Shown one piece after another: positions 9,146 to 28,929 of a DNA stretch of 37,606 nt (its first letter is position 1; each line of letters begins with the position of its first letter). Under the pieces are notes generated by a model that ran no database searches, was not told where the DNA came from, and was given only the letters and a program-made list of their open reading frames with translations. The translations under genes and the position numbers were made by a program. Source of the DNA: Actinomycetota bacterium. Lineage in GTDB: Bacteria; Actinomycetota; Acidimicrobiia; Acidimicrobiales; JAMDDE01. The stretch is from NCBI GenBank assembly GCA_023489235.1, contig JAMDDE010000009.1:73351-110956 (forward strand), read 5' to 3'.

Positions 9146-9161
9146 TTCAACAAATTGTCAA
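9146..9161 (-). promoter_or_regulatory. Operator-like motif, copy 1 (TTGACAATTTGTTGAA), upstream of permease
   Basis: Matches TTGACA-NNNN-GTTGAA; candidate -10 TTATGT 17 nt downstream. Confidence 0.7.
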
Positions 9162-9225
9162 GTATTAGACTTTCAGAAGAAATAGCACAGGATATCTCGG
9201 TGGGCACTGTTGGACTGTCTGTCGA

Positions 9226-9435
9226 TTATCCCACCTCATACAACCCCTTAGCGTGCTTAGGTGGCAGGCCGGTTAAACCATGGGGCATCTCTATGATCGA
9301 GTGCGCCCCGCAAGCCCTGGCTTTAGCCTTGGGGAGAATGTCAGCGAACATACCCCGCAAGCTCCTCGCTCATATCCGTGGAACGGTGTTGCCAACCACA
9401 TCTTGTGAGTTGTCCCGAGCCTTTTGTCTGCGCCT
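9226..9435 (-). pseudogene. Possible C-terminal remnant of an unidentified gene downstream of dpaL
   Basis: Minus-strand frame reads RRRQKARDNSQDVVGNTVPRI*ARSLRGMFADILPKAKARACGAHSIIEMPHGLTGLPPKHAKGLYEVG*, protein-like but interrupted by TGA (9372-9370). Confidence 0.3.
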
Positions 9436-9440
9436 TCAGG

Positions 9441-10697
9441 TCAACTACCTAATAAGGGAGGGAGGTCTTTTACTATCTCAGCGAAGCTGGAGGGGTCGGT
9501 AGCTCCTTCTGTAGATATAACGAGTACTGATACAGCATGATTTATTGGCAGAGCCCTCGCTACGACCCCGTATTCATCCTTTCTCAGCGCTTGTTCGATG
9601 CCAGCCAAACCAGCAGCCCCAGTTTCTCCAGAGATCAGACCGGCTTGGTAGAGATCTCGTACAGCTTGAATAGCTGCTGCATCGTCGATGGAGATAGATG
9701 CATCAAGCCCCTTGACTAGCGATGGCCAGGCGACCGGAGATGGGTTTCCACAGTTCAAACCAGCCATAATGGATTCATGTGGTCCAGGGACATTGGTTAG
9801 TTGCCCCTTTTGGAGGGAGGTTAACACGCACGCTGCTGTGTCTGGCTCTACGCCGAGGAGTCGCGTATGGCGCCGTCTAAGTTCCCCTATGGGCGGCTCA
9901 CTGTTTCCACTGCCGACAGCAAACCCTTTGTAGTGTCGTATAGCAGCAGCTGCTAGAGCACCTACTCCCATTTGGACTGCCATCACATCGGGGTCTGCTA
10001 ATCCCATCTTGCTTAGTTGGTCGTCGATCTCCGTGAAAATAGTGGAGTATCCTTCCACTACCCACCGTGGTGTTCTCTCCGAAGAGTTCGTTGCTGTATC
10101 GGCTATGACCAAGGTGTACTCGTCAGCAGTTGCCTCTGCTTGTTTTACTGCATCATCGTAAGATCCTTCCACCTCCACAACTCGAGCACCCTCAGCAGTT
10201 ATGGAGTTGATTCGTGCTGGTGAGGTGCCTTGAGGTACGAAGATCACTGCATCCAGCTCTAGCAAGCGAGCCATGTACGCCACGGCTCGACCATGGTTTC
10301 CATCCGTGGCTGCCGTCAGGGTTAGTTTGCGTGAAGCATCTAGAGCAGAGTAAAGCCGTGATTTCAACTCCCCCAGGGTGTGAACATTCTTGACCAGCTC
10401 TATCCCTAGGTGCTCTTCGAGAGCTCGCACCGTAGCCCATGAAGCACCGAGCACCTTGAAAGCAGGCAAACCAAATCGACTGGACTCATCCTTGACTAGC
10501 AGTTGCCTAATGCCCAATGGCTTGGCCAGTTGAGGAAGGCTAACCAGTGGCGTTGCCTTGTACCCAGGAAGGCATCGATGGAGTTTGGTAGGTGACCGAT
10601 CCTCTAAGGGGATAAGTCGCTCCCTGCCAACTGATAGGTACTCTGTTGGCTTGATCGTATCCTTATTTATCCAAAAGCATTCTGTTGAGTTGCTCAC
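9441..10697 (-). CDS. dpaL: Diaminopropionate ammonia-lyase (PLP-dependent; DpaL/YgeX family)
   Basis: 418 aa, GTG start with AAGGA 8 nt upstream; KDESSRFGLPAFKVLGASWA PLP-lysine region, TATDGNHGRAVAYMARLL, GVEPDTAACVLTSLQKG, HESIMAGLNCGNPSPVAWP. Confidence 0.92.
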   Translation of the reverse strand: MSNSTECFWINKDTIKPTEYLSVGRERLIPLEDRSPTKLHRCLPGYKATPLVSLPQLAKPLGIRQLLVKDESSRFGLPAFKVLGASWATVRALEEHLGIELVKNVHTLGELKSRLYSALDASRKLTLTAATDGNHGRAVAYMARLLELDAVIFVPQGTSPARINSITAEGARVVEVEGSYDDAVKQAEATADEYTLVIADTATNSSERTPRWVVEGYSTIFTEIDDQLSKMGLADPDVMAVQMGVGALAAAAIRHYKGFAVGSGNSEPPIGELRRRHTRLLGVEPDTAACVLTSLQKGQLTNVPGPHESIMAGLNCGNPSPVAWPSLVKGLDASISIDDAAAIQAVRDLYQAGLISGETGAAGLAGIEQALRKDEYGVVARALPINHAVSVLVISTEGATDPSSFAEIVKDLPPLLGS

Positions 10698-10713
10698 TGA
10701 TCGGTTCCTTGAG

Positions 10714-10729
10714 TTGACAAATCGTTGAA
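10714..10729 (+). promoter_or_regulatory. Operator-like motif, copy 2 (TTGACAAATCGTTGAA), between dpaL and the deaminase gene
   Basis: TTGACA -35 overlap; candidate -10 GATAAC at 10736-10741. Confidence 0.7.
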
Positions 10730-10742
10730 AAACAAGATAACA

Positions 10743-10834
10743 CAGGGCATGGGTAAGCGCTTGGTGTTGTAGGGGAAGAGGAGCGGAGGATGCTGAACGA
10801 CGAGAAGCAGGGCATGAGCAAGCGCTTGGTGTTG
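10743..10834 (+). repeat. 27-bp imperfect direct repeat, CAGGGCATGRGYAAGCGCTTGGTGTTG
   Basis: 10743-10769 and 10808-10834, 25/27 identical, 65-bp period; second copy is the coding start MSKRLVL. Confidence 0.9.
10749..10772 (+). other. Candidate leader mini-ORF MGKRLVL*
   Basis: ATG GGT AAG CGC TTG GTG TTG TAG; ATG lies about where the transcript should start given the -10 at 10736-10741. Confidence 0.4.
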
Positions 10835-12112
10835 AAGGGGGCTCGTTGGCCAGGTGACATAGCTATTGAGGACGGTCGCATCAAGGCTGTGGGTAGCCTT
10901 GAGGTAACCAGCAAGGATCGAGAGCTGCGCTGTGATGGGGATATCATCACTCCTGGGCTGGTGAATACCCATCATCATTTGTATCAATGGATGACCCGAG
11001 GAAGGGCTACTGGATGCGATCTGTTCGGCTGGTTGAGGACCTTGTACCCCGTGTGGTCGAAGATGAGCGTAGAGGACGTACACCTCGCTGCCGTGGTTGG
11101 GTTGGCAGAGTTGGCCACCTCGGGAGCTACCTGCGTTGCTGATCATCACTATGTGGTGCCCAGGGGTGATGACAGTGTATTCGATGCTATTGCAGATGCC
11201 GCTAGAACGATTGGAGTGCGATTGGTTCTCTCCAGGGGGTCCATGGATTTAGGGGAGTCCAAGGGTGGACTCCCTCCTGACGAGATCGTGGAGGATACAG
11301 AGACAGTCCTTTACTCCACCGAGGCAGTTGCTTCCCGTTTGCACGATGGAGATCTGGTATCGGTGGTGGTGGCCCCTTGCAGTCCGTTTTCGGTGAGCGC
11401 AGAGCTTATGAAAGAATCTGCAACACTGGCTCGTCACTTGGGACTTCGACTACACACCCATCTAGCTGAAACCCTTGCAGAGGAACGAGACTGTCTAGCT
11501 CGCTTCGGCCGTAGGCCACTTGATGTGCTAGAAGAATTCGGGTGGATTGGAGAGGACGTATGGTTCGCTCATGGAATCCACTTCAACGACTCAGAGATCA
11601 GGCGTATAGGAAGCACGAGAACCGGTATTGCTCACTGCCCTTCTTCCAATGCTCGCTTGGCTTCAGGAATTTGCCCAGTAGTGGATCTGAGGAAGGCTGG
11701 GGCTCCTGTTGGTTTAGGGGTAGATGGTGCAGCCTCCAATGAAGCAGGGGTTCTTTTTTCCGAGATGCGCCAAGCAGTCTACCTCGCTCGGTTACGTGAG
11801 ATGAGGGCTGATGCCCTGTCCGCTGCAGATGGCCTGGCCATGGCTACAGAGGGAGGAGCAAGGTGCATTGGGAGGCTAGATCTTGGTTCGCTGGCCCCAG
11901 GTTCCCCTGCCGACTTGGCAGTTTGGGGTGCAGACGATCTAGCGGACATAGAGGATCCGGTAACTGCTTTGGTCTTCGGCCCGGAACGGCGAGTCAAGCA
12001 TTTACTTGTAGCAGGTAGGCCAGTGGTAGAGGATGGTCTTCCCCTGGGAGTGGATATGCAGGCAGTTCATGAAGGACTAGCCCAGAGATCGAAGCGGTTG
12101 TTTGATCGATGA
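10790..12112 (+). CDS. 8-oxoguanine/guanine deaminase-type amidohydrolase (AtzB/TrzN-like); start may be 10814
   Basis: 440 aa; TPGLVNTHHHLYQ, LHTHLAE, HGIHF, GLGVDGAASNE metal-site motifs; second ATG at 10814 (MSKRLVLKGARW). Confidence 0.87.
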   Translation: MLNDEKQGMSKRLVLKGARWPGDIAIEDGRIKAVGSLEVTSKDRELRCDGDIITPGLVNTHHHLYQWMTRGRATGCDLFGWLRTLYPVWSKMSVEDVHLAAVVGLAELATSGATCVADHHYVVPRGDDSVFDAIADAARTIGVRLVLSRGSMDLGESKGGLPPDEIVEDTETVLYSTEAVASRLHDGDLVSVVVAPCSPFSVSAELMKESATLARHLGLRLHTHLAETLAEERDCLARFGRRPLDVLEEFGWIGEDVWFAHGIHFNDSEIRRIGSTRTGIAHCPSSNARLASGICPVVDLRKAGAPVGLGVDGAASNEAGVLFSEMRQAVYLARLREMRADALSAADGLAMATEGGARCIGRLDLGSLAPGSPADLAVWGADDLADIEDPVTALVFGPERRVKHLLVAGRPVVEDGLPLGVDMQAVHEGLAQRSKRLFDR

Positions 12113-13512
12113 GCAACGGAAGGCTTATTCGTGGAGGAACCGTAGTTGACTCTACTGGTATGCACAAGACTGATGTCAGGGTTGGAGAGGACGGTACAGT
12201 ACGGGAGGTTGCCCCTGGACTTGTCGCCATGAGCGGTGAAGAGGTCTACGATGCCACCTCTAAACTAGTCATTCCTGGAGGAGTGGATGCGCACACTCAT
12301 TTGCATCTAGAGGTTGGTGACCTCCGCACCTCTGATGACTTTGCCAGCGGTACCATGGCTGCTGTCATGGGAGGAACTACTTGTGTCATTGAGTATGTAA
12401 CTCCTCGCCAGGGAGAGGATCCTCTTGCAGCAGTCGAGTACTGGCGAAGCCTAGGCGAATCGGCGTGCATAGACTGGTCGTTGCATGCCACCTTTACTAG
12501 TGCAGTATCATCCTCTGTTGTTGCTTCCTTGGTGGAGGGTGGCATAACTTCTTTCAAGTTATACCTTGCTTACTCCCAGCTTGCGATAAGTGATCGTGAA
12601 GCTGTCCAAATGCTCTTTGCCGCCAAAGAGCATGGGGCGGTGGTCTGCTTTCACTGCGAGAATGGTGGAGCGATAGATGTCTTGATTGCCCGTGCACTGG
12701 CAGAAGGAAGGAAGGGCGTTCCTGAACATGCCTCTACGAGGCCGGCCATACTGGAGGCAGAGGCAGTCAACCGAGTTTGTAGTTTCGCGGAGATAACCGA
12801 GGCAACGGTTTACTTGGTTCACCTATCCTCTGCTCTTGCTTTGGAGAATATGATGCGCGCTAAAGATCGAGGTGTGCATGTATTGGGAGAGACCTGTCCT
12901 CACTACCTTTGGCTGGATCGCAGAAAGCTGGAAGGGGAGGAGGGGATCTGCTTCATGTGCAGCCCCCCTCTTCGGGACAAGTCCGATCAAGATCAGCTAT
13001 GGAATGCACTTGCCAGTGGCATGTTGGATACGGTGGCTACGGATCACTGTCCGTTCTGGACGGCCGATCGCAAGGCGGGAATATTTGGTAAATCACATCC
13101 GGCAGACAACTTCTCGGAGATGCCTGGAGGTCTACCCGGCATCGAGACCAGGATGGCTCTCATGTGGCAGGGTGTACGAGCTGGACTAATCACACCTATG
13201 GATTGGGTACGAACCTGTTGCGAACAGCCAGCCAAGATCTTTGGCTTGTGGCCGAAGAAGGGGTCACTGGCTGTCGGTGCCGATGCGGATCTAGTGGTAT
13301 GGGACCCCAATAGACCTGCATCGCTGGATTACCAATCCCTACATATGGCCACTGACCACTCTCCCTATCAAGGATGGAGAGTAGAAGGCTGGCCGGAGTT
13401 GGTTTTGTCCAGAGGTAGGGTAGTTGTCCACCGGGGGAGATTCATGGGAGAAAGAGGAGTAGGTCAGTTCGTGCCCGGCAGAGTTAAGAGAGTTAATCCA
13501 GAAGGATTCTAA
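12109..13512 (+). CDS. hydA: Dihydropyrimidinase / hydantoinase family
   Basis: 467 aa; [21 protein letters not shown] (carboxylated Lys), [30 protein letters not shown] overlap with upstream gene. Confidence 0.92.
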
Positions 13513-14513
13513 GCTGCATTTGGTGAAAAGGCGTCTATCATTGCTTGCACATTTGATCCAAGAGGATAGAGTATGGGGCATGTGCAACCTTTCTCTATGT
13601 ACTCGTCCACTTTAGCTCTGCAATCCTCGACATTCCCCGAAGCAGTTATCGATTGCACGACCTCGTCAGGCACCAACCTGCTGGCCTTTTCTATTTGCTC
13701 ATGAGTAGCTGGCCAGGACAACTTCTCCCCGATCTCTTCTATCAATGCCTTGGGTACTCCTGAGGCGGCCATTATGTGAGGTTGTTGACCCAGGTATTGA
13801 GTAACCAGCAATCTGGCAGCATCTATGGCTCGTTGACGGTCTTCGTCCAATGAACATACGATTAGTTGAGGTCGATCCAGTTCTTCCAAGTCTCGCCCGA
13901 CGCGTTTTCCTCCAATGGCGAGGTGCTCCATGGCCATCTCGTTGTAGGAAGGGGAAACAAGATAGTTGAGCAGTACTCCATCGGCTATCTCACCTGCAAG
14001 TTCCATCATCTTCATGCCTGTGGCGCCAATGTAGATGGGAATGTGCTTAGTCCGGCGTTCACTGTGTACATAGTCAAGCTGTGCTCCGTTCAGATGAACG
14101 AACTCTCCGTTGTAGGTTACCGGTTCGCAACTGAAAAGAGCACGAACCGCCTCTACCGTTTCACGCATTGCCTGTAACGGCTTGTTTCTGTGGATCCCTA
14201 CCTTGCTAGCGAGAGGATCCCACCATGCTCCTATGCCAAGCAGCACTCGTCCAGGGGCGAGATCGTCAAGTGTAGAAAAGGTGGAGGCCAGCAAGGCAGT
14301 GTTTCTCGTCCAGTTGTTGACGACCCCCGATCCGACCAGTATGCGGCTTGTAGATGCCAAATAAGCGGCCATAGGTACCGTCGCCTCTCTCACCAGCCTG
14401 CTCTCTGCTTGCCACACTGCATCGAAGCCTTGCTGCTCTGCGTAAGCGGCTATGGCGATCCCTTCACGTATGGAATGGGCATCTTGTAGATATAGTGCCA
14501 CCCTGGAAACCAA
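13509..14513 (-). CDS. LLM-class, probably F420-dependent, oxidoreductase
   Basis: 334 aa; [64 protein letters not shown] typical of Mer-like LLM proteins. Confidence 0.88.
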
Positions 14514-14612
14514 GTGGACCTCCTTCCCTTTGTTGTTTCAAAGTTGCTCCTTGCAACCATGGTCCCGGACCAGATATCGAGGTATGGTGCGTATGGGTCA
14601 TGCATACAGCTG

Positions 14613-15638: not shown

Positions 15639-15645
15639 CTTAAAC

Positions 15646-18300
15646 CTAGTCCTGTGAGCCCAAGACCCCTTGGCGATCGGTCGTCTCCTTGTTGTCCTTG
15701 TTGGAGGAGCGCATCATCGGTAACTGGTTGCGCCAATATCCATCGAGGTCGTACAGAGCAGCTGCCACGGCTCCTGCTGTGGGGACCAGACCAATCTCAC
15801 CTACGCCTTTTATTCCATAAGGGGAGCGGGGCTGGGGACACTCTACGATGTGCACTTCTATCTCGGGCATGTCCTTTGCTCGTAGAATTCCAAGACTGCG
15901 CAGGGTCATGTGGGTAGGGCGCCCTTCTTCGTCGGTGGGGAACTCCTCACTTAGGGCAAAGCCAAGTCCCATGTGTACGGCACCTTGAATCTGGCCCTCT
16001 ACTAATAACGGGTTCATGGCTCTGCCTACGTCATGTGCGGCTATGACCCGCTCGATCTTCTTGGTCGTCCGGTCAATGACCACAACTTGGGCTGCATAGG
16101 AAAGGGCGGAGTGGACCAAGGGGTGCTCCAGCCCTTCTTCTATGGAGTTGGTCCAGTCCACTGTATATGTACCCACGTAATCAATCCCAGGGAGCCTTCC
16201 ACCCTTCATCGCCTTACGACAAGCGTCCGCTATGGCCCCTGCCCCCATGAGTGTCGCCCTCGAGCCAGTGGTCTGGCCTGCGCCCAGTTCCCTGGTGGTA
16301 TCCACCACAACCCGTATCCTTCCTGGCTCCACACCTAGTTCTTGAGCGGCTACTTGGACGGCAACTGTGTTTATTCCCTGTCCCATCTCCGTCCAGCCAT
16401 GGCGCACCTCTACAGTGCCGTCGTCCATGAAGCGCACCACTGCTTTCGATTCCTCGACGACCCCGTTGCCCAACCCGGAGTTCTTGATTCCTATACCCAA
16501 CCCGACAGCCTTGCCAGCCGCTTTTGCCTCTTCATAGGCGGGAGTTACTTTTTCCAGACACTCTGCGGCTCCAAGAGCACCATCATCCAAGATCTGCCCA
16601 GGGCCCCAAATGCTTCCGGGATGCACCAGGTTACGCTTGCGTATCTCCAACCCGCTCAGACCCACAGCCGCGGCCAACCTGTCCATGATTCCTTCCATGG
16701 CAAACTGGGCTTGATTTGAGCCAAATCCCCGGAACGCTCCGCACACCGGGTTGTTCGTGCGAACTGCAATGGCCTCTACATCGATAGCTCCTATCTCGTA
16801 GGGTCCACCAGCATGGCCAGCCGCTCGTTCGAGCACCTTTGCTCCCACTGAAGCATAGGGACCCGAATCGCCAATTATTCGTGCACGGAGGGCGGTCAGA
16901 TGTCCTTCGTGGTCACAACCGGCCCAGTACTCGAGTCGCATGGGGTGACGTTTGGGATGCATGAGCAACGACTCAGTACGGCTCAAGGTGCAACGCACAG
17001 GGACTCCAAGTAGCCATGCAGCAAGTGCTGTATGTGCTTGGTTGGAGAGGTCCTCTTTCCCCCCGAAGGCACCACCGTTGGAGATCAGTTCAACTACTAC
17101 TTGTTCGGGGTGTATATCCAGTACAGAGGCTATTTGATCCCTATCGTCGAATATTCCTTGGCTACCGGAGTACACATGAATATGGTTGGAACCGTCTGGG
17201 ACTGCCAAGGTTGACTCCGGCTCTAGGAATGCATGTTCCACCCTTTGAGTCTGGAACACCTCATGAACGAGATGGGCAGAAGAGGCAAGAGCGTTCTCTA
17301 TATCTCCCCGGCTGTAGCGGGAGACAGAGAGAACGTTTCCTGATAGCCCCCAGGTAGCATCCTCGGGGTCGTCGATAGCCTCAACCGGATCACAGATGGT
17401 CCTCAATACTTCGTACTCCACCGACACCAGAGCGGCTGCTCTTCTAGCTGTGTATTTGTCCTTGGCTACTACTATGGCCAGAACATCTCCCAAGTACGAG
17501 GTACGACCACCTACAGGGATCATAACCGGCCAGTCGCGATCGATGATACCTACCCGCAGCTCACCAGGGATGTCCTGGGCAGTGAAAACCGCCATGACTC
17601 CCTCTACCTCTTCAGCAGCCTTGGTGTCTATGGAAAGGACCTTCGCTCTGGCATGATCAGCGAGCCGAAGGGCAGCATGCAACATGCCCGGTACAACTAG
17701 GTCGTCGATGTAACCCCTGGAGCCAGTGGCAAGTTTTAGTGCTTCATAGCGAACGCCTCGTTCGCCTATCTTATTACCCAGGCTCAGTGCACGACCGTTC
17801 GTGCTCCGGTCGTGGTTGGTACTGGTAAAGTTGTCATTCCCAGTTGCTTGTTTGGCTAACTGCTCTACAGCATCCAGTACCTTGGTATATCCAGTGCAGC
17901 GGCAGAGGTGAGAGCCCAGTAAACGGGCTGCATCCTCTCTAGTGAGCGAAGCCCCCTTCCTGTCCAGCAGGCTCTTGGTACGCAAGAGAATGCCAGGTGT
18001 GCAGAATCCGCATTGCAAAGCACCTACCTCAGCGAATGTTCCAGCCAGGAGCTCCAGTTCATTAGGGGGAAGTCCCTCCAAGGTGACAACTGAACGACCC
18101 TCAACTCCCGCTACAGGTATCTGACAGCTTACTGTAGCTTTGTTGTCTATCAGCACCGTACATGCACCGCATTGACCGGATGGGGAGCATCCATCCTTGG
18201 GAGAGGTAATACCCAGTTCCTCTCTCAAGGCACCAAGGAGGTGAGGATGCTCCTTTTCGACTTGGACAGTCTTCCCGTTCAATGTGAATGTGATACCCAT
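15646..18300 (-). CDS. xdhD: Fused [2Fe-2S]/molybdopterin hydroxylase, XdhD-type
   Basis: 884 aa; CSPSGQCGACTVLID and LQCGFCTPG...CRCTGY in the N-terminal part, then Mo domain with GGAFGGKED, CGAFRGFGSNQAQFAMEGIMD, GVGEIGLVPTAGAVAAAL. Confidence 0.9.
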   Translation of the reverse strand: MGITFTLNGKTVQVEKEHPHLLGALREELGITSPKDGCSPSGQCGACTVLIDNKATVSCQIPVAGVEGRSVVTLEGLPPNELELLAGTFAEVGALQCGFCTPGILLRTKSLLDRKGASLTREDAARLLGSHLCRCTGYTKVLDAVEQLAKQATGNDNFTSTNHDRSTNGRALSLGNKIGERGVRYEALKLATGSRGYIDDLVVPGMLHAALRLADHARAKVLSIDTKAAEEVEGVMAVFTAQDIPGELRVGIIDRDWPVMIPVGGRTSYLGDVLAIVVAKDKYTARRAAALVSVEYEVLRTICDPVEAIDDPEDATWGLSGNVLSVSRYSRGDIENALASSAHLVHEVFQTQRVEHAFLEPESTLAVPDGSNHIHVYSGSQGIFDDRDQIASVLDIHPEQVVVELISNGGAFGGKEDLSNQAHTALAAWLLGVPVRCTLSRTESLLMHPKRHPMRLEYWAGCDHEGHLTALRARIIGDSGPYASVGAKVLERAAGHAGGPYEIGAIDVEAIAVRTNNPVCGAFRGFGSNQAQFAMEGIMDRLAAAVGLSGLEIRKRNLVHPGSIWGPGQILDDGALGAAECLEKVTPAYEEAKAAGKAVGLGIGIKNSGLGNGVVEESKAVVRFMDDGTVEVRHGWTEMGQGINTVAVQVAAQELGVEPGRIRVVVDTTRELGAGQTTGSRATLMGAGAIADACRKAMKGGRLPGIDYVGTYTVDWTNSIEEGLEHPLVHSALSYAAQVVVIDRTTKKIERVIAAHDVGRAMNPLLVEGQIQGAVHMGLGFALSEEFPTDEEGRPTHMTLRSLGILRAKDMPEIEVHIVECPQPRSPYGIKGVGEIGLVPTAGAVAAALYDLDGYWRNQLPMMRSSNKDNKETTDRQGVLGSQD

Positions 18301-18360
18301 TGCCCTTCAATACTCGATCTTTGCTCTCATTGGTTCTAGTTAGAAGTGGATGCCCACTGG

Positions 18361-19608
18361 TTAGTTGGACATAGCCTCTTGGTGGGAGAGCATCTGGAGA
18401 TGCCTAGAAGCAAAGAGGCTAGGGAAAGCAGCGTACCAAGCCATAGCGGTTACCAGGTCATCTATTGGGCATTGGTCATGCGCAGTGTGAGCATGAACTT
18501 CATCCCCAGGTCCAAAACCAATGGTGGGTATGCCCAGTTTCCCCATGGACGCCACCCCATTCGTGGAGAAGACCCAGTGCCCCGTGGTCAACTCCTGATC
18601 AAGAGCGATCCTTCCCGTTTCGATGCCGGCAGTAATTCCATAGTGGTCGAGAGGAGTGACCCAGGTGTTGTACGATTTGGGCTGGGACAGGGTCATGCCA
18701 GTGAATGAAGTTCGTTGGTAGTGGAGCAGTTCGACAGTACCTCCGACGGCTTTCACCGATGGCAACTGACGGATCTCTTCGAGAGCCTCATCTGGTGATT
18801 CGCCTGCTGTCAGTCGGCGATCGAGATAGATGGTAGCTGTCGAGGGGACGGCGTTGAGACTGGGAGTCTCGCATTCGATCTTTGTAAGAGCTACTGTCCC
18901 AGGACCGAGAAAACTGTCCATGCCCAACTTGGAGTTGAGCTCTTCTACTTCGCTTATTACTGGGACGAGTTGATAGACAGGATTGATGCCTCTTTCTGGA
19001 GCTGATGCATGACACGAAGACCCATGTAACCGTATGAGCACCTCTATGCGACCACGGTTCCCTCTGTATACCTGGCAGCGAGTTGCTTCACCAAGTACGA
19101 CAATATCTGGCCTGGGTATCACCTCGGTGAGTATGTGCTCCAAAGCCAAGCCATCGCAGTCCTCCTCCTGGACCGATCCAATGACCCACAAGGTTACCTC
19201 TTCGCTTCGGCCAAGTTCATTGTAGAGGGCAGCTCCTTGCACCATGGAGGCTATGCCTCCTTTGTCATCGCTAGCGCCTCGTCCCCACATCACCCCTCCA
19301 CCTGCATCTGGTCTTATGACTGGTTCGAACGGGTCAGTCTCCCATTCGTCACGGCTTCCAACTGCCACCGTGTCTATATGGCTGTCGTAAACAATGTTGA
19401 CAGGTCCGGTACCAATTCTGCCCACGATTGAACCAAATGGCTCGATGAATACCTCGTCGAAACCGGTTTCTGTCATTTCATGGCGTAGTCTTTCTACCAC
19501 CATCTCCTCGTTGGAGGATAGAGATGGAGTATGTACCAAATCACCGAGTAGGTCCACGACAGCTCTCCGACGGCGTTCGGCTGCAGAGAGAAATGATGTA
19601 ACAGCCAT
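18361..19608 (-). CDS. ygeY: M20-family hydrolase, YgeY type
   Basis: 415 aa; YDSHIDTVAVG, WGRGASDDKGG, GSVQEEDCDGL, GEATRCQVYRGNRGR, GPGDEVHAHTAHDQCPIDDL. Confidence 0.9.
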   Translation of the reverse strand: MAVTSFLSAAERRRRAVVDLLGDLVHTPSLSSNEEMVVERLRHEMTETGFDEVFIEPFGSIVGRIGTGPVNIVYDSHIDTVAVGSRDEWETDPFEPVIRPDAGGGVMWGRGASDDKGGIASMVQGAALYNELGRSEEVTLWVIGSVQEEDCDGLALEHILTEVIPRPDIVVLGEATRCQVYRGNRGRIEVLIRLHGSSCHASAPERGINPVYQLVPVISEVEELNSKLGMDSFLGPGTVALTKIECETPSLNAVPSTATIYLDRRLTAGESPDEALEEIRQLPSVKAVGGTVELLHYQRTSFTGMTLSQPKSYNTWVTPLDHYGITAGIETGRIALDQELTTGHWVFSTNGVASMGKLGIPTIGFGPGDEVHAHTAHDQCPIDDLVTAMAWYAAFPSLFASRHLQMLSHQEAMSN

Positions 19609-19627
19609 ATCTCCATCGTTTCTCTAT

Positions 19628-19643
19628 TTCAACAAAATGTCAA
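19628..19643 (-). promoter_or_regulatory. Operator-like motif, copy 3a (TTGACATTTTGTTGAA)
   Basis: Between ygeY and the D-aminoacylase gene; 22 bp from copy 3b. Confidence 0.7.
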
Positions 19644-19649
19644 GTGTGC

Positions 19650-19665
19650 TTCAACAAAATGTCAA
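19650..19665 (-). promoter_or_regulatory. Operator-like motif, copy 3b (TTGACATTTTGTTGAA)
   Basis: Identical 16-mer to copy 3a; immediately precedes a plus-strand -10-like TATGAT (19667-19672). Confidence 0.7.
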
Positions 19666-19679
19666 GTATGATGACGTTA

Positions 19680-21310
19680 TGAACACAGTTGTGCCATTTG
19701 TTCTCCAAGGGGGAACTCTGATAAACGAGCCGTTTGCTCCACCGAGGAGAGCTGATATAAGGGTCGATAGCCGTGGAAGAGTGATCGAGATCGGGGATGC
19801 TTTGACCGTTGACCAATCGGAGATGCTCATAAGAGTTGATGGCATGGTGGTTGCTCCTGGGTTTGTGGACCTGCACTCGCACTCCGATCTTTACAGTCTG
19901 AGCCGTGATGGCTCTCCTGCACCAATAGGTGATGTTCCCAAGCTCTTGCAAGGGTGCACCGCTCAAATATTCGGTCAGGATGGGATCTCGGCTGCTCCCG
20001 TAGACGAGGACAAGCGCCTTGAACTAGCCCATTCGATGACGGGGCTTGACGGCAGTATCGAGGAGTCCCTTTGGAGCTGGCGAAGCTTTGGGGAGTACAT
20101 CTCTGCTGTTCGACGAAGTTCAGCAACTCGTGTGGCAGGGTTGGTAGGACACTCCACTATTCGCAGGATGGCTATGGGGGTGGAGATGCGTCCTCCTCGT
20201 GAAGATGAACTGGAGCACATGTGTCGTCTAATCGATGAAGCCATGACCGAGGGAGCACTGGGCTTGTCAACAGGACTTGTTTACATACCGGCTGCCTATG
20301 CCGAGACGGATGAGCTTATTTCCTTGGCCAAAGTAGTGGCAAAGCACGAAGGCCGTTTTTTTGTCCATGTTCGATCGGAAAGTGATCGAGTTGTAGAAGC
20401 TACGGAGGAAGTTCTAGAGGTCGCCTACCGTTCAGGAGTCCACCTTCATTACAGCCACATCAAGGCAGCAGGCAAGTCCAACTGGCCGCTTGCCCCAAAG
20501 CTGGTGGAGATGGTCGAGGACTACAGAACACGTGGAGTGCAAGTGACTGCGGATGTCCATCCCTATGTGGCCGGGTCCACGACCGCGGCGGTCTTGTTGC
20601 CTCCTTGGGTGTTCGATGGCGGTGAAGAGGCTGCTCGCCAGCGACTATCCGATCCTGTGGTCAGGCAACGGATTCGGGCTCAGATGCTTTCGGATACCAC
20701 TAGCTTCGACAACTGGTGGGCCTTCTCCGGTGGTTTCGAGGGGTTGTGGGTGGCCCAAGCCAGCAATCCCGATTTGCAAGGCCGTAGCTTTGCTGATGTC
20801 ATTCATACTCAGGGGATCAGCGATCTCAACTCACAACCCGCCTTCGACCTGGTTTTCAACCTACTTGCTTCTGAGAATTTCTCTGTATCGCTCATCTCCT
20901 TCAACAACATCGAAGAGAACATCGCCATGTTCCTGTCCCAACCATACACGGGAGTGGGCAGCGATGCTCTGGTCAATCCGCATGGTCATCCCCATCCACG
21001 CTTGTACGGCACCTTCCCACGAGTGCTCGGTCGTTTCGTACGCGAGCTGAAGGCTATCGATCTCTACGAGGCAGTGGCCTCCATGACGTGGAAAGCTGCT
21101 CAAGCTGCAGGATGGCCAGGGGTAGGAACTCTTTCCGTAGGGGATAGGGCAGATATAGTTGTCTTCGATCCCGATACCGTAGCTGACCAGGCCACTTGGG
21201 AAGAGCCTAGGATACCTCCCATCGGGATAGAAATGGTGTTTGTCGGCGGTAAGCTCGTTGCCAAGGATGGCAAGCTGTTGGAGCACATAGGAGTTGCAGG
21301 GGAGGGCTGA
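19680..21310 (+). CDS. N-acyl-D-amino-acid deacylase family amidohydrolase (start revised from 19394)
   Basis: APGFVDLHSHSD, QIFGQDGISAAP, GALGLSTGLVYIPAAYA, HVRSESDRV, HYSHIKAAGKSNW, GVGSDALVNPHGHPHPRLYGTFPRVLG; ORF upstream of 19680 crosses operators and ygeY. Confidence 0.9.
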
Positions 21311-23031
21311 TGGGCAGAAGACCGGCTAGTAGTAGGGTATTGGCAGTAGCACGAGGAGAAGCCCCTGCTGATCTACTTATTACGGGTGGGAAGGTTTTCG
21401 TGCCCACTACCAAGGAGTGGGTCTCCACAGAACTAGCCATTGCTGACGGAGTGGTAGCTGGCTGGGGTAAACGTGATGCTCTTCAGGTAGTCGATCTTGA
21501 TGGAGCTGCCCTCACGGCAGGCTTCATCGATGCCCACATGCACCTGGAGTCCACCAAGCTGTGGGTGGATGAGTTCGTACGCACGGTATTGCCCAGAGGA
21601 ACTACTGCTGTTGCAGCTGACCCCCATGAGATAGCCAACGTCTTTGGGACAAGGGGAGTTTTGGCTTTGATGGAGGCAGTCAAAGACCTACCTTTCACTT
21701 TTGGAGTTCTAGCCTCCAGCTGTGTTCCTGCTTCGGAGTTCGAGAGCTCAGGTGGAACAGTTAGCTCTAGCGAAATAGCCACTTTGATCTCCCAAGGGGC
21801 TATTGGAGTTGCCGAGATGATGAACTTTCCTGGCGTAATAGCAGGTGACCCCGAGGTAATGGCCAAGATTGCTGCTTCGGGTCAACGTAGAGTAGACGGG
21901 CATGCTCCTGGACTAAGTGGGCAATTATTGGATGCTTATCTAGTAGCGGGGGTGGAGTCGGATCATGAGTGTACTACGATCGAAGAAGCTAGAGAGAAGC
22001 GCCGCAAGGGAATGTGGGTATTCATCCGACAAGGAACGGCCAGTCAGGACTTGGCTAGCTTAATTGGGCTGGTCAAGGAGCATGGCGTTGATCACCTAGC
22101 ACTGTGTACGGATGATCGTGAACCGGATACCTTGGTTGAGTCGGGCCATGTGAATGACTGCGTCAGGTTGGCGGTCAGCTACGGAGTGGATGAGGCAGAT
22201 GCAATCATCATGGCAACGGCCAACCCAGCCTCTTATTTTGGCCTCTCGACGTTGGGCTCTCTTGCCCCTGGGATGCAGGCGGATATCTGTTGTTTTGATC
22301 GCCTGGCCGACTTTGAGCCGGTGCAGGTGTGGCAGGCCGGTAAGCTCGTTGCTGTTAGCGGTGAGATCTTGGAAGGAGTAGTGCCTGACTCGCCTCCGCC
22401 TGGATGGATGCTCGACTCTGTTCACTTGGGGGATGTCCCTTCAGCAGCGGCCTTTGAACTCAAGGTAGATGCTGAAGATGTGGTCAGAGTGGTAGCGGTA
22501 GAGGAACGTTCGCTTACTACCCGGTTGGAAGCACAGAGGATCGTGGAGGGGAAAGGGGACATCGCGCGAGGGGCTATTGTGGAGAGACACCATGGTTCCG
22601 GAAGAGTGGGGCTTGGGTTCGTCAAAGGATTTGGACTGTTGAAAGGAGCTATAGCCTCTAGTGTCTCTCACGATGCTCACAACATTGTAGTCCTTGGATC
22701 CTTGGAGGAGAGTGGGCCTCGGGATATGGCTGTTGCCGTAGCTCGATTGAGCGAGATAGGCGGTGGACAGGTTGCGGTGTTCGATGGGCGAGTGATAGGG
22801 GAGGTAGCTCTACCTATAGGTGGCTTGATGAGCAGGAAGCCCGCACAAGAAGTTGCCAGGGAGATAGCCTCCTTGGAGGAGATTGTTGCATCTGCTCTTG
22901 GTGTCAGCATTGAAGCTCCGTTCATGCAGCTGAGTTTTTTGGGGCTCTCGGTGATCCCTGAGGCCCGATTGACCGATAAAGGCCTTGTAGATGTCCGTCA
23001 GTTCTCCATCGTACCGGTGGTGGTCTCTTGA
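21310..23031 (+). CDS. ade: Adenine deaminase
   Basis: 573 aa; AGFIDAHMHLESTKLWVDEFVRTVLPRGTTAVAADPHEIANVFG, VDGHAPGLSGQLLDAYLVAGVESDHECT, SVSHDAHNIVVLG. Confidence 0.95.
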   Translation: MGRRPASSRVLAVARGEAPADLLITGGKVFVPTTKEWVSTELAIADGVVAGWGKRDALQVVDLDGAALTAGFIDAHMHLESTKLWVDEFVRTVLPRGTTAVAADPHEIANVFGTRGVLALMEAVKDLPFTFGVLASSCVPASEFESSGGTVSSSEIATLISQGAIGVAEMMNFPGVIAGDPEVMAKIAASGQRRVDGHAPGLSGQLLDAYLVAGVESDHECTTIEEAREKRRKGMWVFIRQGTASQDLASLIGLVKEHGVDHLALCTDDREPDTLVESGHVNDCVRLAVSYGVDEADAIIMATANPASYFGLSTLGSLAPGMQADICCFDRLADFEPVQVWQAGKLVAVSGEILEGVVPDSPPPGWMLDSVHLGDVPSAAAFELKVDAEDVVRVVAVEERSLTTRLEAQRIVEGKGDIARGAIVERHHGSGRVGLGFVKGFGLLKGAIASSVSHDAHNIVVLGSLEESGPRDMAVAVARLSEIGGGQVAVFDGRVIGEVALPIGGLMSRKPAQEVAREIASLEEIVASALGVSIEAPFMQLSFLGLSVIPEARLTDKGLVDVRQFSIVPVVVS

Positions 23032-23195
23032 GGCTTGGTTTACTCTTTGCTGTTTACTCTATGGCATCCCGGTGCATCGGTTCATGCTCCTTCAACTAGT
23101 GGCTAGTCTGTTTAGGCTTGTAGCAGCTTCCAGGATGACGCTCTGTAGTGTCTTGTGAGTATCTCTTGGCTTTCAGGCCGAGCTAGCGGTGGGGG

Positions 23196-24248
23196 TCAAG
23201 AGGTCGAATCCTTGCTGGGGTGTTCATGGTGTCTCTTGATGTTGGTCGCCCATTGGTCTATGAGGCTGTGCAGCTCGTTGGATCGCCGTGGCTCACAAAA
23301 TGCTGCGGTAGCTGCTTGATGCATGATGGCGACAACCTCGTTTATCCCTAAGCGACAGAGGCTGGTTGCTAGCTCGATCTCTCTGCTCATTGTGGTAGCC
23401 AACAGCATGGGATCATCGGTATTGATGGTTACGGGAACCGATGCTTCCAACAAGCGAGGCAGGGGATGACGGTTGATGTCATGGTACAAAAGGGCAGTAT
23501 TGGAGCTCAAGCATACGTTCAGAGTGATCTGTTCTTCTGCCAGTCTTCTCAGCAGAGCAGGATCCTCAACGGCACGTACTCCATGATCGATACGCTGTAC
23601 CCCGAGTTCGTCTAGGGCAGAGCGTACCCCTTCCGGTCCAGATGACTCACCAGCATGTGCTGTAGTGCCTAACCCACTTTCACGTGCAGCCTTGAATGCC
23701 GTGATAAAGCGCGCATTACCTGCTGAAGGCACTGCCTGGTTGCCGTCGATGGAGAGAGCAACCACTCGCTTTGGTCTTCCATGATCGAGCTCTTCTACCA
23801 GTTCCATTGCCTCTTCGGCTGACTGTTGACGTAGGAGGGACGGTGATATCCTACAGTCGCAGAATCCGTCGGCTTGTGCTTGGTCGAACCCATCCGATAC
23901 CGCTTGCAGTAGATCGGGGCGCTTCAGACCTCTCCAATGAGTTGGATTTACGATGACCTCAGCGTAGACAACGTTGTCGGTGCTCAAGAACTTAGCGAAG
24001 TCGTAGGCTAGTCCGCTAGCCTGTTCTGGGTTACGAACCAGTCCGCACCACCAGTCGAGTAAACTTAGGAAAGAATCGAGATCTGTGAAGTCGTACAACT
24101 CATCAAGAGGTTTAGGCAGTGGCTCTCCAGCAGCTTTTGCCAGATGTGCCACTTGCTCCAAGGAGAAACCTCCTTCTAAGTGCACATGTAGTTCTATCTT
24201 GGGCAGGTTATGCCATGGACCAGCTTGAACTGGTAGTTGGACATTCAT
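23196..24248 (-). CDS. add: Adenosine deaminase
   Basis: 350 aa; LPKIELHVHLEGG, TAHAGESSGPEGVRSALDELGVQRIDHGVRAVEDP, LNVCLSSNTALL, VTINTDDPML. Confidence 0.93.
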   Translation of the reverse strand: MNVQLPVQAGPWHNLPKIELHVHLEGGFSLEQVAHLAKAAGEPLPKPLDELYDFTDLDSFLSLLDWWCGLVRNPEQASGLAYDFAKFLSTDNVVYAEVIVNPTHWRGLKRPDLLQAVSDGFDQAQADGFCDCRISPSLLRQQSAEEAMELVEELDHGRPKRVVALSIDGNQAVPSAGNARFITAFKAARESGLGTTAHAGESSGPEGVRSALDELGVQRIDHGVRAVEDPALLRRLAEEQITLNVCLSSNTALLYHDINRHPLPRLLEASVPVTINTDDPMLLATTMSREIELATSLCRLGINEVVAIMHQAATAAFCEPRRSNELHSLIDQWATNIKRHHEHPSKDSTS

Positions 24249-24285
24249 TTATGGCAAATCCATAGGGTCTCTCATCTCATGACTC

Positions 24286-26652
24286 TCATTTGAGCACGCC
24301 ATCTGCTGTTGGTCGTTTGTTGTCGGCCGAGAAGACTATGTCCTGCGGCCGTACAGGCACTCTGGTGAGAGGTGCGCCAGTGGCTTGTCTTATAGCAGAG
24401 ACTACTGCTGGTACCGAGGATATAGCTGGGGGTTCACCAACCCCCTTGGCACCAAAGGGTGCACCAGGTTCGGGTTGTTCAATCAATGATGCTATGTATA
24501 TATCAGGAGCATCCAAGGCGGTTGGTATCAGATAATCGGTGAAAGATGGATTTTTCACTACACCATTCTCTACTATGAGCTCCTCCATGGTTGCTAGCCC
24601 AACTCCTTGCATTGTGCCACCCTCGATCTGGCCAATAAGTTGTATAGGGTTTAGTACCTTACCCACATCTTGAGCCGTAGAGATGTGAGTTACGCGCACC
24701 AAGCCAAGCTCTGGATCTACATCTACAATTGCTTTATGGGCAGCAAATGCAAAAGAGACATGGGCATCTCCTTGACCGTTATCGTCCAATAGGTAAGTGG
24801 GCTCATGGTGGTATTCCACGAATTCTTCTATAGGACCATTAACGCTGAGAGCCTCGAAGGGTATCTCTACAGAGGTCCCAGAGGATACTATGCGCCCGTT
24901 TTTGATGTACAACTGATGCGGGGAAACCTCCAATTCCTCTGCGGCCATAGTCAAGAGGCGGTCACGTAGCCTGTTGCATGCTGCCTGAACTGCTCCCCCG
25001 GACATCCAGGTTTGACGACTAGCCGATGTGGATCCGGCAGACCCAACTTCATTGGTGTCTCCTGCAGAGAAGACGATCTTGTCTGTATCGAACACATCTC
25101 TAGCGATTTGGTGAGCTAAAGTTATGAATCCTTGTCCTACCTCGACAGCTGCACATATGACGGTGATGGTGTCACCGTCAAGTCGACATTTGGCTGTGGA
25201 GTAATCGTCAAAACCCTCGGAGTACAGCAAATTCTTGAAACCTACCGCAAAGCCGATGCCCCGGCGTAGCTTGGTGGTGTCGCTACATCTACCAGCTCCT
25301 CCCGGCATGGCCAGAGGATTGTCGAGGAGGTGTGGTGGTAGTGGAGCGCTTGCTGCTTCTTTTATCACCTCTGCAACTGGTATGGATCCTTGCAACACTT
25401 GACCAGTTACGAAGGTGTCACCCGTACGCAAAGCATTTTTTAAGCGAAGCTCTATGGGATCCATGTCCAAAGCAGAGGCGAGTTTGTCCATCTGGGTCTC
25501 GTACCCAAAGCAAGCTTGTACAGCTCCAAACCCTCGCATTGCTCCACATGGTGGATTATTGGTTCTTACTGCAAATCCATCGATTGCCGCAGAGGGCACT
25601 CGGTACGGACCAGCTGCAAAACAAGCAGCATTGGCAATTACTGCTGGAGAAGAAGAAGCATAGGCACCACCATCCAAGATGATTCTCGCTTCCACCTTGA
25701 CCAAGGTGCCATCTTTCAGAGCATGGTGGCGGTACCACATTCGAGCGGGGTGACGATGTACGTGTCCAAGGAATGACTCTTGACGATTGAATACTATCTT
25801 TACCGGTTGTCCAGAGCTTAGGGCTAGGAGGCATAGGTGAATTTGCAAAGTAATATCTTCTCTGGCTCCGAAGGCGCCTCCTACGCCAGCAAGATGTAGT
25901 CTAACCAACTCCGGAGGTAAAGCCAGGCAAGCGGCTATTTGATCGCGATCAACATGTAACCATTGGGTGGATATGTACAAGTCCACTCCTCCGTCCGATG
26001 CAGGTATGGCCAGTCCTGACTCGGGACCCATGAATGCCTGATCTTGCATGCCAACCTCGTAGCTGCCTTCTACTTGGACTTCACCTTGGACATCAAGGTT
26101 GCCGTGGCGTATGGAGATGTGACGGAAGATGTCTTGTTCGCTATCTCTCCTGGAGCGCCTGGTACTATCAACGGTAGGGTCAGCTGGTGCTATCTCTTCT
26201 GGATCCAGGAAAGCCGGAAGAGGGTCATAGCTTACCTCAATTGCCTCTGCAGCTTGCCTTGCTATTTCAGGGTGGGTAGCGGCAACCGCAGCAATTGGTT
26301 CTCCTACGTAACGAACTACATCATGGGCGAATACAGGCTGATCTTTTTTCTCTAGGCCAAAGAAGTGATTACCAGGTATGTCATCCCAGGTGAGGACTGC
26401 TTTGACGCCGGGCATGTTCAGAGCTTTGGTGGTATCGATGGAGACGATTCGCGCATGGGGGTGGGGGGAGCGCAGTATCTTCCCCCATAACATGCTTTCT
26501 GCCCAAAGATCTGAGGAGAATGCGAAGCGACCCTCTGTCTTGTCCACTGCGTCTGGTCGCAGTATGTTCGCTCCTATTGTAGGAGTAGTAAGTTCTTGCC
26601 TATTTGTACCTGTTTCAATAGTTGTTGTCATCACTTCAGTAGCTGTCATCAC
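24286..26652 (-). CDS. Xanthine dehydrogenase-type molybdopterin subunit
   Basis: 788 aa; GVGGAFGAREDITLQ, NNPPCGAMRGFGAVQACFGYETQMD, VEVGQGFITLAHQIA, GAPFGAKGVGEPPAISSVPAVVSAI. Confidence 0.93.
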   Translation of the reverse strand: MMTATEVMTTTIETGTNRQELTTPTIGANILRPDAVDKTEGRFAFSSDLWAESMLWGKILRSPHPHARIVSIDTTKALNMPGVKAVLTWDDIPGNHFFGLEKKDQPVFAHDVVRYVGEPIAAVAATHPEIARQAAEAIEVSYDPLPAFLDPEEIAPADPTVDSTRRSRRDSEQDIFRHISIRHGNLDVQGEVQVEGSYEVGMQDQAFMGPESGLAIPASDGGVDLYISTQWLHVDRDQIAACLALPPELVRLHLAGVGGAFGAREDITLQIHLCLLALSSGQPVKIVFNRQESFLGHVHRHPARMWYRHHALKDGTLVKVEARIILDGGAYASSSPAVIANAACFAAGPYRVPSAAIDGFAVRTNNPPCGAMRGFGAVQACFGYETQMDKLASALDMDPIELRLKNALRTGDTFVTGQVLQGSIPVAEVIKEAASAPLPPHLLDNPLAMPGGAGRCSDTTKLRRGIGFAVGFKNLLYSEGFDDYSTAKCRLDGDTITVICAAVEVGQGFITLAHQIARDVFDTDKIVFSAGDTNEVGSAGSTSASRQTWMSGGAVQAACNRLRDRLLTMAAEELEVSPHQLYIKNGRIVSSGTSVEIPFEALSVNGPIEEFVEYHHEPTYLLDDNGQGDAHVSFAFAAHKAIVDVDPELGLVRVTHISTAQDVGKVLNPIQLIGQIEGGTMQGVGLATMEELIVENGVVKNPSFTDYLIPTALDAPDIYIASLIEQPEPGAPFGAKGVGEPPAISSVPAVVSAIRQATGAPLTRVPVRPQDIVFSADNKRPTADGVLK

Positions 26653-27332
26653 TGTGCTCTTCGACTCGGAGCTCTTAGGTTCGGGGACTGTTGGACAAGC
26701 TCTTCAGCAAGTCGGATAGCAGCAAAGATGCGTCCGTACCCGGTACACCTGCACAAGTTGCCAGATATCGCCTCTCTGGCATCCAACTCGGAGGGGTGTG
26801 GGTTGTGCCTGAGTAAGTCTGTAACCGCCATGACGAGTCCAGGAGTGCAAAAGCCACACTGTACTGCTCCAGCTGCGGCAAAGGCTCTTTTTACTGGATG
26901 CATGTCAGGTGGAGTAGCTTGGAGAAGCTCTCCTTCGATTCGTTCAGTGTCTACTGGGTTCTGGTAAGAGCTATGTAGTGCATCATGTCGGTGAGGTACT
27001 GATCCAGGTGCCGCTAGCAAGTCGTCTCCGACTGGCCGCGACGACGGTGTGGCAGTCTCTGTCTGGGAGGGCATATCTGTTCCTTCAATGCCCTCGACTG
27101 TGGTGACCTCGACACCTTCGGCATCAGCAGCAAGGACGAGACACGAGCATACAAGGGTATCATCGAGCAGAACTGAGCATGATCCGCACTCGCCTTGTTC
27201 GCAGGCATTCTTGGATCCTGATAGACCTAGGCGCTCTCGCAGGACGTATAGAAGGCTTTCTCCTATCCAGACGTCTTTGAGCGGGTAGTCCCTTCCATTT
27301 ACCTTTAGGTTGATGTCAAGTGTAGCTACCAT
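26649..27332 (-). CDS. Xanthine dehydrogenase-type [2Fe-2S] subunit with extended inter-domain linker
   Basis: 227 aa; CEQGECGSCSVLLD, AVQCGFCTPGLVMA, GNLCRCTGYGRI. Confidence 0.92.
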   Translation of the reverse strand: MVATLDINLKVNGRDYPLKDVWIGESLLYVLRERLGLSGSKNACEQGECGSCSVLLDDTLVCSCLVLAADAEGVEVTTVEGIEGTDMPSQTETATPSSRPVGDDLLAAPGSVPHRHDALHSSYQNPVDTERIEGELLQATPPDMHPVKRAFAAAGAVQCGFCTPGLVMAVTDLLRHNPHPSELDAREAISGNLCRCTGYGRIFAAIRLAEELVQQSPNLRAPSRRAQ

Positions 27333-27366
27333 ATTTTCTCCATATATAATATTATAGTTCTATTTG

Positions 27367-28221
27367 TCACTCATATGCATGACTTGCTCGTTCCAACGCT
27401 CGTCTAGCACAAACTGCAACAGCATGTCTTCGGTACTCTGCAGTAGAGCGATGGTCGTCTATAGGCCTAGCTGCTCTTGCTACTAACTCGCTGAAAGATC
27501 GCAAGGCGCTTTCCTCCAGAGGTATGCGTCGATTGCCCCAGTCAATCTTTGCAGCGAGCCATCTCTCTGCTTCCAAGGCTTCCATGGGTCCTGGCCCTAC
27601 TGAACCCAAACCACAACCAACTCGGTAGCTATCCCAATCAATTACTAGAGCGACAGTGGCGACAGAGATTACCATGGCATTTCTGGTCCCTACCTTCAAG
27701 AACTCTTGTGAGGAGTCATGCAGAGGAACCCGTATCCCGGTGATGAGCTCTTGAGGCTGGAGAACTGTTTGCTTGGGGCCAGTTATGAACTCGTTTATAC
27801 GAAGACTGCGAACCGAGTTCAAAGAGGAAATTTCTACTCTGGCATCTAAGGCTAACAGTATTGGCAAGGTATCGCCCGCCGGAGAGGCTGTAGCCAGGTT
27901 GCCGCCTATGGTGCCAGCATTGCGTATTTGCGGGGAACCTACCGTGCGAGCTGCTTGTGCAAGGCCGGGAACTAGTTCGGCTAAGGGTGGTGCAACGAGC
28001 TTGCTGAAGGTTATACCTGATCCCAGATAGAGTTCAGACCCACTCACTTCGAAGTCCCGCAGCTCGGCTATGCGCGATAGGGAGAGAATGGATACCGGCC
28101 GTCTGTGTCCGTAGTTGACTTCTACCATAAAGTCCGTGCCACCACCTAGTATTTCCATCTCAGGATTGTCGGCGAGTATTTGAAGCGCTTCCTCTAACGA
28201 AGTGGGCCGATTTATGCTCAT
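27367..28221 (-). CDS. Xanthine dehydrogenase-type FAD-binding subunit (start probably 28221 rather than 28236)
   Basis: EILGGGTDFMVEVNYG, AARTVGSPQIRNAGTIGGNLATASPAGDTLPILLALDA; ATG at 28221 sits where transcription from the -10 at 28235-28230 would begin. Confidence 0.9.
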   Translation of the reverse strand: MSINRPTSLEEALQILADNPEMEILGGGTDFMVEVNYGHRRPVSILSLSRIAELRDFEVSGSELYLGSGITFSKLVAPPLAELVPGLAQAARTVGSPQIRNAGTIGGNLATASPAGDTLPILLALDARVEISSLNSVRSLRINEFITGPKQTVLQPQELITGIRVPLHDSSQEFLKVGTRNAMVISVATVALVIDWDSYRVGCGLGSVGPGPMEALEAERWLAAKIDWGNRRIPLEESALRSFSELVARAARPIDDHRSTAEYRRHAVAVCARRALERASHAYE

Positions 28222-28242
28222 CACCATAGAGTACAAGCGAAA

Positions 28243-28258
28243 TTCAACACTTTGTCAA
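28243..28258 (-). promoter_or_regulatory. Operator-like motif, copy 4 (TTGACAAAGTGTTGAA)
   Basis: TTGACA -35, 17 nt, TGTACT -10 (28235-28230) upstream of FAD-subunit gene. Confidence 0.7.
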
Positions 28259-28827: not shown

Positions 28828-28833
28828 AACAGA

Positions 28834-28862: not shown

Positions 28863-28929
28863 TGTATTACATTGTATAAATTGCCGTTGGGGGTCGGTGA
28901 ACTGGGCTAGCGATCTGAGCCGTGACCCC

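Follow-up and report, generated by a model that had tools for sequence, protein, structure and literature searches.

Introduction

The enzymes of reductive uric-acid degradation have been worked out only recently. In the present study, we analyzed a stretch of 37,606 nucleotides (the window), part of contig C27 of the Acidimicrobiia genome G000 (2,170,811 bases, 93% complete), in which an island of reductive uric-acid/purine genes is accompanied by five copies of a 16-bp motif, TTGACANNNNGTTGAA. We consider it probable that this 16-mer serves as operator for a regulator dedicated to purine catabolism, made up of a helix-turn-helix (HTH) protein of the HTH_22 family and a Thiamine_BP-like sensor, which would repress by occluding the -35 box. 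Reductive uricolytic clusters have been described that include an F420/LLM reductase for YgfK and the D-aminoacylase UacY for YgeW (PMC12507026), and they have in common with the window XdhD, SsnA, a hydantoinase, a UacY-like D-aminoacylase, YgeY, YgeX and the F420/LLM protein replacing YgfK. The word 'regulator' is absent from the main text of that paper (PMC12507026). What we add is a proposed shared operator and its likely reader for the Acidimicrobiia form of the cluster.

Regulators of the YheO/DauR kind consist of a PAS-like sensor plus HTH_22, and they share with our candidate the C-terminal DNA-binding domain PF13309; unlike them, the candidate has a short N-terminal half, no PAS domain detected by Pfam scans, and a Thiamine_BP-like sensor that is either fused or separate. 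With the thiamine-binding proteins of the MTH1187/YkoF type it shares, by profile and model, a ferredoxin-like sensor domain, whereas here the domain is fused to or paired with an HTH protein and scores below the TIGR00106 cut-off. The open-access literature gave us nothing useful on HTH_22, DauR, YheO or YkoF-HTH, and this regulator may have been described before elsewhere.

In S. coelicolor, the TetR-family repressor XdhR controls the xanthine dehydrogenase genes through a local operator, from which it is released by ppGpp (PMC6627660, PMC7057948). Actinobacterial control of xanthine dehydrogenase-type genes, a local operator and (here proposed) release by a small molecule are common to both systems; XdhR, however, has a TetR fold and serves the oxidative xdhABC operon, whereas HTH_22 plus Thiamine_BP, a different operator and a reductive uricolytic island are found here. 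The group-2 operators of IclR regulators (PMC8222616) resemble ours in their ACA...TGT dyad core and in tandem sites about two turns apart, but the spacer here is 3 rather than 1-2, and IclR genes are neither linked nor generally co-occurring.

Operator copies in the window and the genome

A first reading of the sequence had placed five copies of a TTGACA plus GTTGAA motif in the window and had reported no other full match. Both statements proved accurate: the five exact matches stand at the coordinates and on the strands given to them, and there is no sixth, against 0.00 expected from dinucleotide shuffles. The copies, with two -10-like elements downstream of them, are the following.

9146..9161, minus strand: operator copy 1, TTGACAATTTGTTGAA, exact match, preceding the NCS1 permease
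9138-9133, minus strand: weak -10-like TTATGT, 17 bp on from copy 1
10714..10729, plus strand: operator copy 2, TTGACAAATCGTTGAA, exact match, between the divergent dpaL (minus) and 8-oxoguanine deaminase/hydantoinase (plus) genes
19628..19643, minus strand: operator copy 3a, TTGACATTTTGTTGAA, exact match, on the ygeY side of the divergent ygeY/D-aminoacylase promoter
19650..19665, minus strand: operator copy 3b, exact match, 22 bp from 3a, on the D-aminoacylase side
28243..28258, minus strand: operator copy 4, TTGACAAAGTGTTGAA, exact match, preceding the FAD/FeS/Mo/add operon
28230..28235, minus strand: -10-like hexamer TGTACT, 17 bp after the TTGACA of copy 4

Together, the five copies span every control region of the island, and 11-bp TTGA direct repeats are present in them. 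The spacing of copies 3a and 3b equals two helical turns; the D-aminoacylase gene probably starts at ATG 19679 rather than at the first start codon of its open reading frame (ORF), so that both copies lie within a divergent promoter of about 70 bp. A 16-mer identical to copy 3a precedes ygeY in a related locus (L100), and sites orthologous to copy 4 precede FAD genes in many genomes; in the window, an ATG near 28227 is the probable start of the FAD gene, in place of TTG 28236.

We then considered the motif as a possible common promoter element. All five exact matches in the whole of G000 are the window copies, and the reversed control pattern gave 0. At one mismatch, the rest of the genome gave 12 matches versus 8 for the reversed control and is thus no richer, so that the motif does not have the character of a common promoter element in this genome.

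Operator forms across relatives

The comparison genomes were mostly draft metagenome-assembled genomes (MAGs), and the site lists across relatives were partly sorted by hand. At first look, exact matches were found in eight genomes among 59 relatives, and in three of the seven other genomes (G002, G049 and G054) the site stands directly before the FAD operon, xdhD/dpaL or ygeY/D-aminoacylase. When the scan was extended to 397 genomes of the order, with the reversed pattern as control, the T-core form TTGACANNNTGTTGAA gave 49 matches in 36 genomes versus about 10 for the control. By hand count, about 33 of these 49 (29 of the 45 found outside this genome) stand immediately ahead of one of the purine genes FAD, xdhD, ygeY, dpaL and hydantoinase, and the rest are about as numerous as the control predicts. 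The same 16-mer thus recurs before orthologous FAD/FeS/Mo, xdhD, ygeY and dpaL operons in relatives of about ten other families, which, together with the confinement of every exact genome match to the island, bears out its description as operator-like and specific.

Two related forms were recognized. The palindromic form TTKACANNNTGTMAA gave 39 matches in 80 xdhD loci plus the first comparison loci, 33 of them near the start of an island orthologue, against 0, 1 and 0 for permuted controls; in another group, the third form, TTGACANNNCGTMAA, is found ahead of ssnA/hydantoinase, of NCS1/add and of the regulator's own gene. All three forms have the ACA-N3-YGT dyad in common, and since the related forms stand before the same genes, the 16-mer family reads as an operator whose conserved core is this dyad. 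The sites of the original prediction therefore stand, and it is their description as TTGACA plus GTTGAA that is better replaced by a degenerate dyad around this core.

A TTKACANNNTGTMAA-type site also recurs a few to about fifty bases before the start of a PALP-type PLP enzyme of about 510 aa (L108-L120, L155). Homologues of the enzyme sit inside purine islands (L166:14661, L168:390 and L225:1024), and on that account it may provide an alternative last step in place of YgeX.

Promoter geometry

Among 31 orthologous sites of the window type, the motif is oriented toward the operon, TTGACA is a perfect -35 in every site, and outside the motif conservation is confined to a -10-like element at a distance of exactly 17 bp downstream of TTGACA (A in 74% at position 2, C in 74% at position 4, T in 81% at position 6). 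This agrees with the earlier suggestion that TTGACA doubles as a -35 box, and it follows that the operator overlies the -35 together with the upstream part of the spacer. Within about ten bases downstream there is often a start codon, for which reason the transcripts may in many cases be leaderless.

Such a geometry spontaneously raises the thought that no specific regulator is involved and the motif is simply a strong promoter (-35 plus spacer) common to these operons, TTGACA being the consensus -35 and the distance to the -10 being maintained. We regard this as highly improbable: the genome holds no other exact copies, sigma has no sequence requirement in the spacer, where the right half GTTGAA is located, variants with TTTACA as left half still keep the dyad, and lineages without the HTH gene are mostly without sites. 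A more serious rival has the HTH_22 protein bind the same operator as an activator, aiding polymerase at a promoter whose -10-like element is poor (xAGCAT) from a site that, as with class II activators, overlaps the -35. This rival is weakened because all window-type sites have a perfect -35, usually dispensable where an activator acts at -35, and because the site spans the -35 and upstream spacer, the classical position for occlusion; activation thus appears unlikely, though it is the main alternative to repression.

Candidate regulator

The original prediction held that the regulator is probably encoded outside the island, and the best candidate is indeed found on contig C4, outside the window. 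Among the ORF clusters beside xdhD, no conserved HTH-like protein was found. In G351 (L241), however, the site separates the FAD operon from a divergent gene for a 121-aa protein with an HTH_22 domain (PF13309), an arrangement seen in some relatives, and homologues of this protein occur in over thirty purine-island loci. The HTH_22 chain often starts with a Thiamine_BP-like domain (PF01910; fused chains in L124, L159, L163, L164, L036, L169 and others), whereas elsewhere a gene of its own encodes the domain, in many cases next to a site. That some lineages fuse the two parts and others keep them adjacent suggests that they act together.

The present genome has one HTH_22 copy (135 aa; G000:C4:~18486-18893), far from the island, whose gene overlaps a downstream 77-aa Thiamine_BP-like ORF in a two-gene unit. 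The HTH_22 protein scores 79.3 bits against PF13309 (gathering cut-off 29.6) and its partner (L245:1221-1454) 28.8 bits against PF01910 (cut-off 24.9); with the latter profile the fused L169 protein reaches 51.4 bits and the L225 homologue 21.6, below the cut-off. Scores against TIGR00106, the equivalog of MTH1187 thiamine-binding proteins, were 18.4 and 33.8 bits, short of its cut-off of 54.7. In Pfam scans, no PAS-type (PAS_6) sensor was found N-terminal to HTH_22, the only domain above cut-off. Structure models were confident for both the HTH_22 protein, to which they give a short alpha-beta N-terminal half, and the Thiamine_BP-like part. The sensor part matches solved MTH1187-type structures by sequence (PDB 1lxn, 1yqh and 2eky), and a fold search of the PDB with the HTH model returned nothing significant. 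The operator's reader is most likely this small HTH_22 protein with its Thiamine_BP-like partner.

The link was examined by co-occurrence in a sample of 297 genomes. The HTH protein is present in 81, of which 75 also have xdhD (p 4e-29); among xdhD-positive genomes, the exact site occurs in 57 of 75 with the HTH protein but in only 9 of 50 without it (p 1.4e-10); and in 42 of 73, the HTH gene and xdhD share a contig and are no more than 40 kb apart. The genomes whose XdhD is closest in identity (G039, i.e., L018, at 77%, and G082) are not among the 81 and have no HTH gene, and in the L018 promoters that were read the site was not found.

Residue x of VSRxT in the recognition helix tracks the operator class: F goes with TGTTGAA, I/M with TGTMAA and V with CGTMAA. 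Proteins with F go with 20 window-type and 5 palindrome-type operators, and those with I, M or V with 0 and 30 (p 1e-10). At regulator-linked loci, the F, I and V operator forms number 14, 0 and 0 for residue F, 0, 5 and 1 for I/M, and 0, 0 and 9 for V. Like the specificity, the conservation and the -35/-10 geometry of the operator, this co-occurrence and covariation were observed in silico.

Several points weigh against the proposed pairing. Nine xdhD-positive genomes have an exact site but no HTH match, although some of these sites are chance, and in 21 HTH-positive genomes no exact site of the F or I class is present, the third form being used by several genomes with residue V. Two groups keep F with palindromic operators, and because five F genomes carry palindrome-type operators, the residue does not alone decide the operator class. 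The Fisher tests behind the co-occurrence and covariation p-values ignore kinship, and the HTH protein tree (111 columns, poorly resolved) cannot tell how often F arose. In addition, linkage alone is partly circular as evidence, because the regulator was found through lying beside sites; co-occurrence and covariation are less so. Finally, the regulator's own gene on C4 has no upstream site in this genome, so that autoregulation is not general.

It is also conceivable that the operator is real but read by a regulator of another family (IclR, TetR, GntR or OmpR/SARP-like), with the HTH_22 gene a mere neighbour. The group-2 motifs of IclR regulators are built on an ACA-N1-2-TGT core, with tandem sites spaced by 18-22 nt (PMC8222616), and an IclR gene adjoins the site in L155; the S. 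coelicolor XdhR is a TetR protein (PMC6627660, PMC7057948); and the 11-bp TTGA repeats of the window copies, along with a BTAD/AAA protein at 1068-4943, bring OmpR/SARP-like regulators to mind. Against these stand the N3 spacer, the absence of orthologs of this genome's TetR, GntR and IclR genes from the islands, and the confinement of the TTGA direct repeat to F-class sites, the I- and V-class sites being dyads. Covariation with the operator class, moreover, was seen only for HTH_22, and we hold another reader to be distinctly improbable, more so than activation.

The individual candidates of these families were set aside in turn. The first transcription factor seen in linkage with a site was the IclR of L155:120-902 (G270), encoded directly upstream of a palindromic site and of the PALP gene; it is not conserved elsewhere, and most genomes that carry sites have no close homologue. 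Nor does the group-2 operator TGRAACA-N1-2-TGTTYCA fit, as the half-sites differ in all classes, like the spacer. None of the seven TetR genes of the genome, which might have provided XdhR-like control, has an ortholog in the islands, and neither a TetR near NCS1 (L034) nor a LysR near a phosphoribosyltransferase (L098) is conserved. An 11-bp direct-repeat operator of the SARP/OmpR kind fails in the other operator classes. The window BTAD protein, a 1291-aa BTAD/AAA (SARP/AfsR-like) regulator at the island edge, is absent from the islands of relatives, its gene being missing from the loci of all 80. Scanning the surroundings of this genome's TetR, GntR and IclR genes with position weights gave a single near-match, taken as chance.

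That near-match is the one-mismatch site TTGAAATATCGTTGAA at G000:C54:23074-23089 (L176:2178), which has a MerR/TetR-type regulator gene ahead of it and a probable acyl-CoA synthetase gene behind it, and could be chance. Look-alike TTKACANNNTGTMAA palindromes of TetR genes in L132, L133, L156 and L157 belong to other systems; in L133, L156 and L157, the TetR gene is divergent from probable alpha/beta hydrolases with the palindromes between them, an unrelated system with a convergent operator.

Genes of the island

Profile searches found the full reductive uric-acid/purine island in the window. Gene content was as first described, with names sharpened by the profiles.

7434..8903, minus strand: NCS1-type nucleobase permease (PF02133)
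9441..10697, minus strand: diaminopropionate ammonia-lyase, dpaL/YgeX-like (NF006058, above cut-off)
10790..12112, plus strand: 8-oxoguanine deaminase (NF006055, above cut-off)
12109..13512, plus strand: D-hydantoinase/dihydropyrimidinase, HyuA-like (TIGR02033, above cut-off)
13509..14513, minus strand: LLM flavoprotein, F420-type (PF00296), taking YgfK's place in this cluster type (PMC12507026)
14613..15638, minus strand: SsnA-like amidohydrolase, short form (below curated cut-off)
15646..18300, minus strand: XdhD-like selenium-dependent-type molybdenum hydroxylase (TIGR03311, 803.8 bits versus cut-off 830)
18361..19608, minus strand: YgeY hydrolase (NF009555, above cut-off)
19679..21310, plus strand: D-aminoacylase-like amidohydrolase, UacY-like (profiles; PMC12507026)
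21310..23031, plus strand: adenine deaminase, ade (TIGR01178, above cut-off)
23196..28236, minus strand: add, Mo, FeS and FAD genes, second molybdenum hydroxylase operon, transcribed FAD-FeS-Mo-add

All members of the reductive uricolytic cluster (XdhD, SsnA, HyuA, YgeW or UacY, YgeY, YgeX, and YgfK/UacX/F420 reductase) are thus represented, SsnA and XdhD below curated cut-offs. The SsnA-like protein is short, its match starting at profile position 57-58, and the SsnA homologues of relatives are similar in length. Among named relatives of xdhD, the nearest come from Acidimicrobiia/Actinomycetes MAGs. The xdhD locus is also present in a cultivated relative, Desertimonas flava (L097). Elsewhere in the window, a DUF7674 protein (28444-28827) lies upstream of the FAD operon, with long non-coding DNA nearby (28830-29370), and a 930-aa NB-ARC protein is encoded at 33863-36655.

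Among relatives, Rieske-type oxygenase genes were noted at L239:4193-5275 (G253), L230:4709-5698 (G255) and L099:6116-7282 (G002). Those of L239 and L230 combine Rieske-type PF00355 with PF19112 and are preceded by a window-type operator, followed in L230 by ade; that of L099, likened by eye, adjoins the purine cluster. The gene is possibly an undescribed purine-pathway oxygenase. Phosphoribosyltransferases adjoin the FAD operon at L098:9169-9684 and L105:1183-1794. A similar sequence (by eye) at L122:2467-2985 has a TTTACACTTTGTAAA site about 100 bp upstream, which suggests that purine salvage is part of the regulon.

Proposed mechanism and significance

From these patterns we infer binding, dimerization, repression rather than activation, the sensor role and its ligand, and promoter occlusion is the best-supported mechanism. 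The degenerate dyad would overlie the -35 of each operon, 17 bp ahead of the -10-like element, and the HTH_22 protein presumably binds it as a dimer, with the ferredoxin-fold Thiamine_BP-like subunit beside it as putative sensor. Bound protein would block access of the sigma factor to TTGACA, until the sensor takes up a metabolite of the uric-acid/purine pathway and the protein is released. At the doublet 3a/3b, two dimers could sit on one face of the helix and shut the divergent ygeY/D-aminoacylase promoter.

More broadly, we lean, by a modest measure, toward the view that a previously undescribed class of purine/urate regulator, with an HTH_22 subunit and a Thiamine_BP-fold sensor, fused or as two proteins, governs reductive uric-acid degradation across Acidimicrobiia, and that one recognition-helix position helps set three operator classes. 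This would provide a candidate regulator-operator pair for reductive uric-acid degradation in Actinomycetota of the environment, whose three naturally occurring operator classes correspond to a residue of the recognition helix, and would assign a likely sensory role to a Thiamine_BP-type domain. The operator alone would then offer a way to predict purine regulons and new genes of the pathway.

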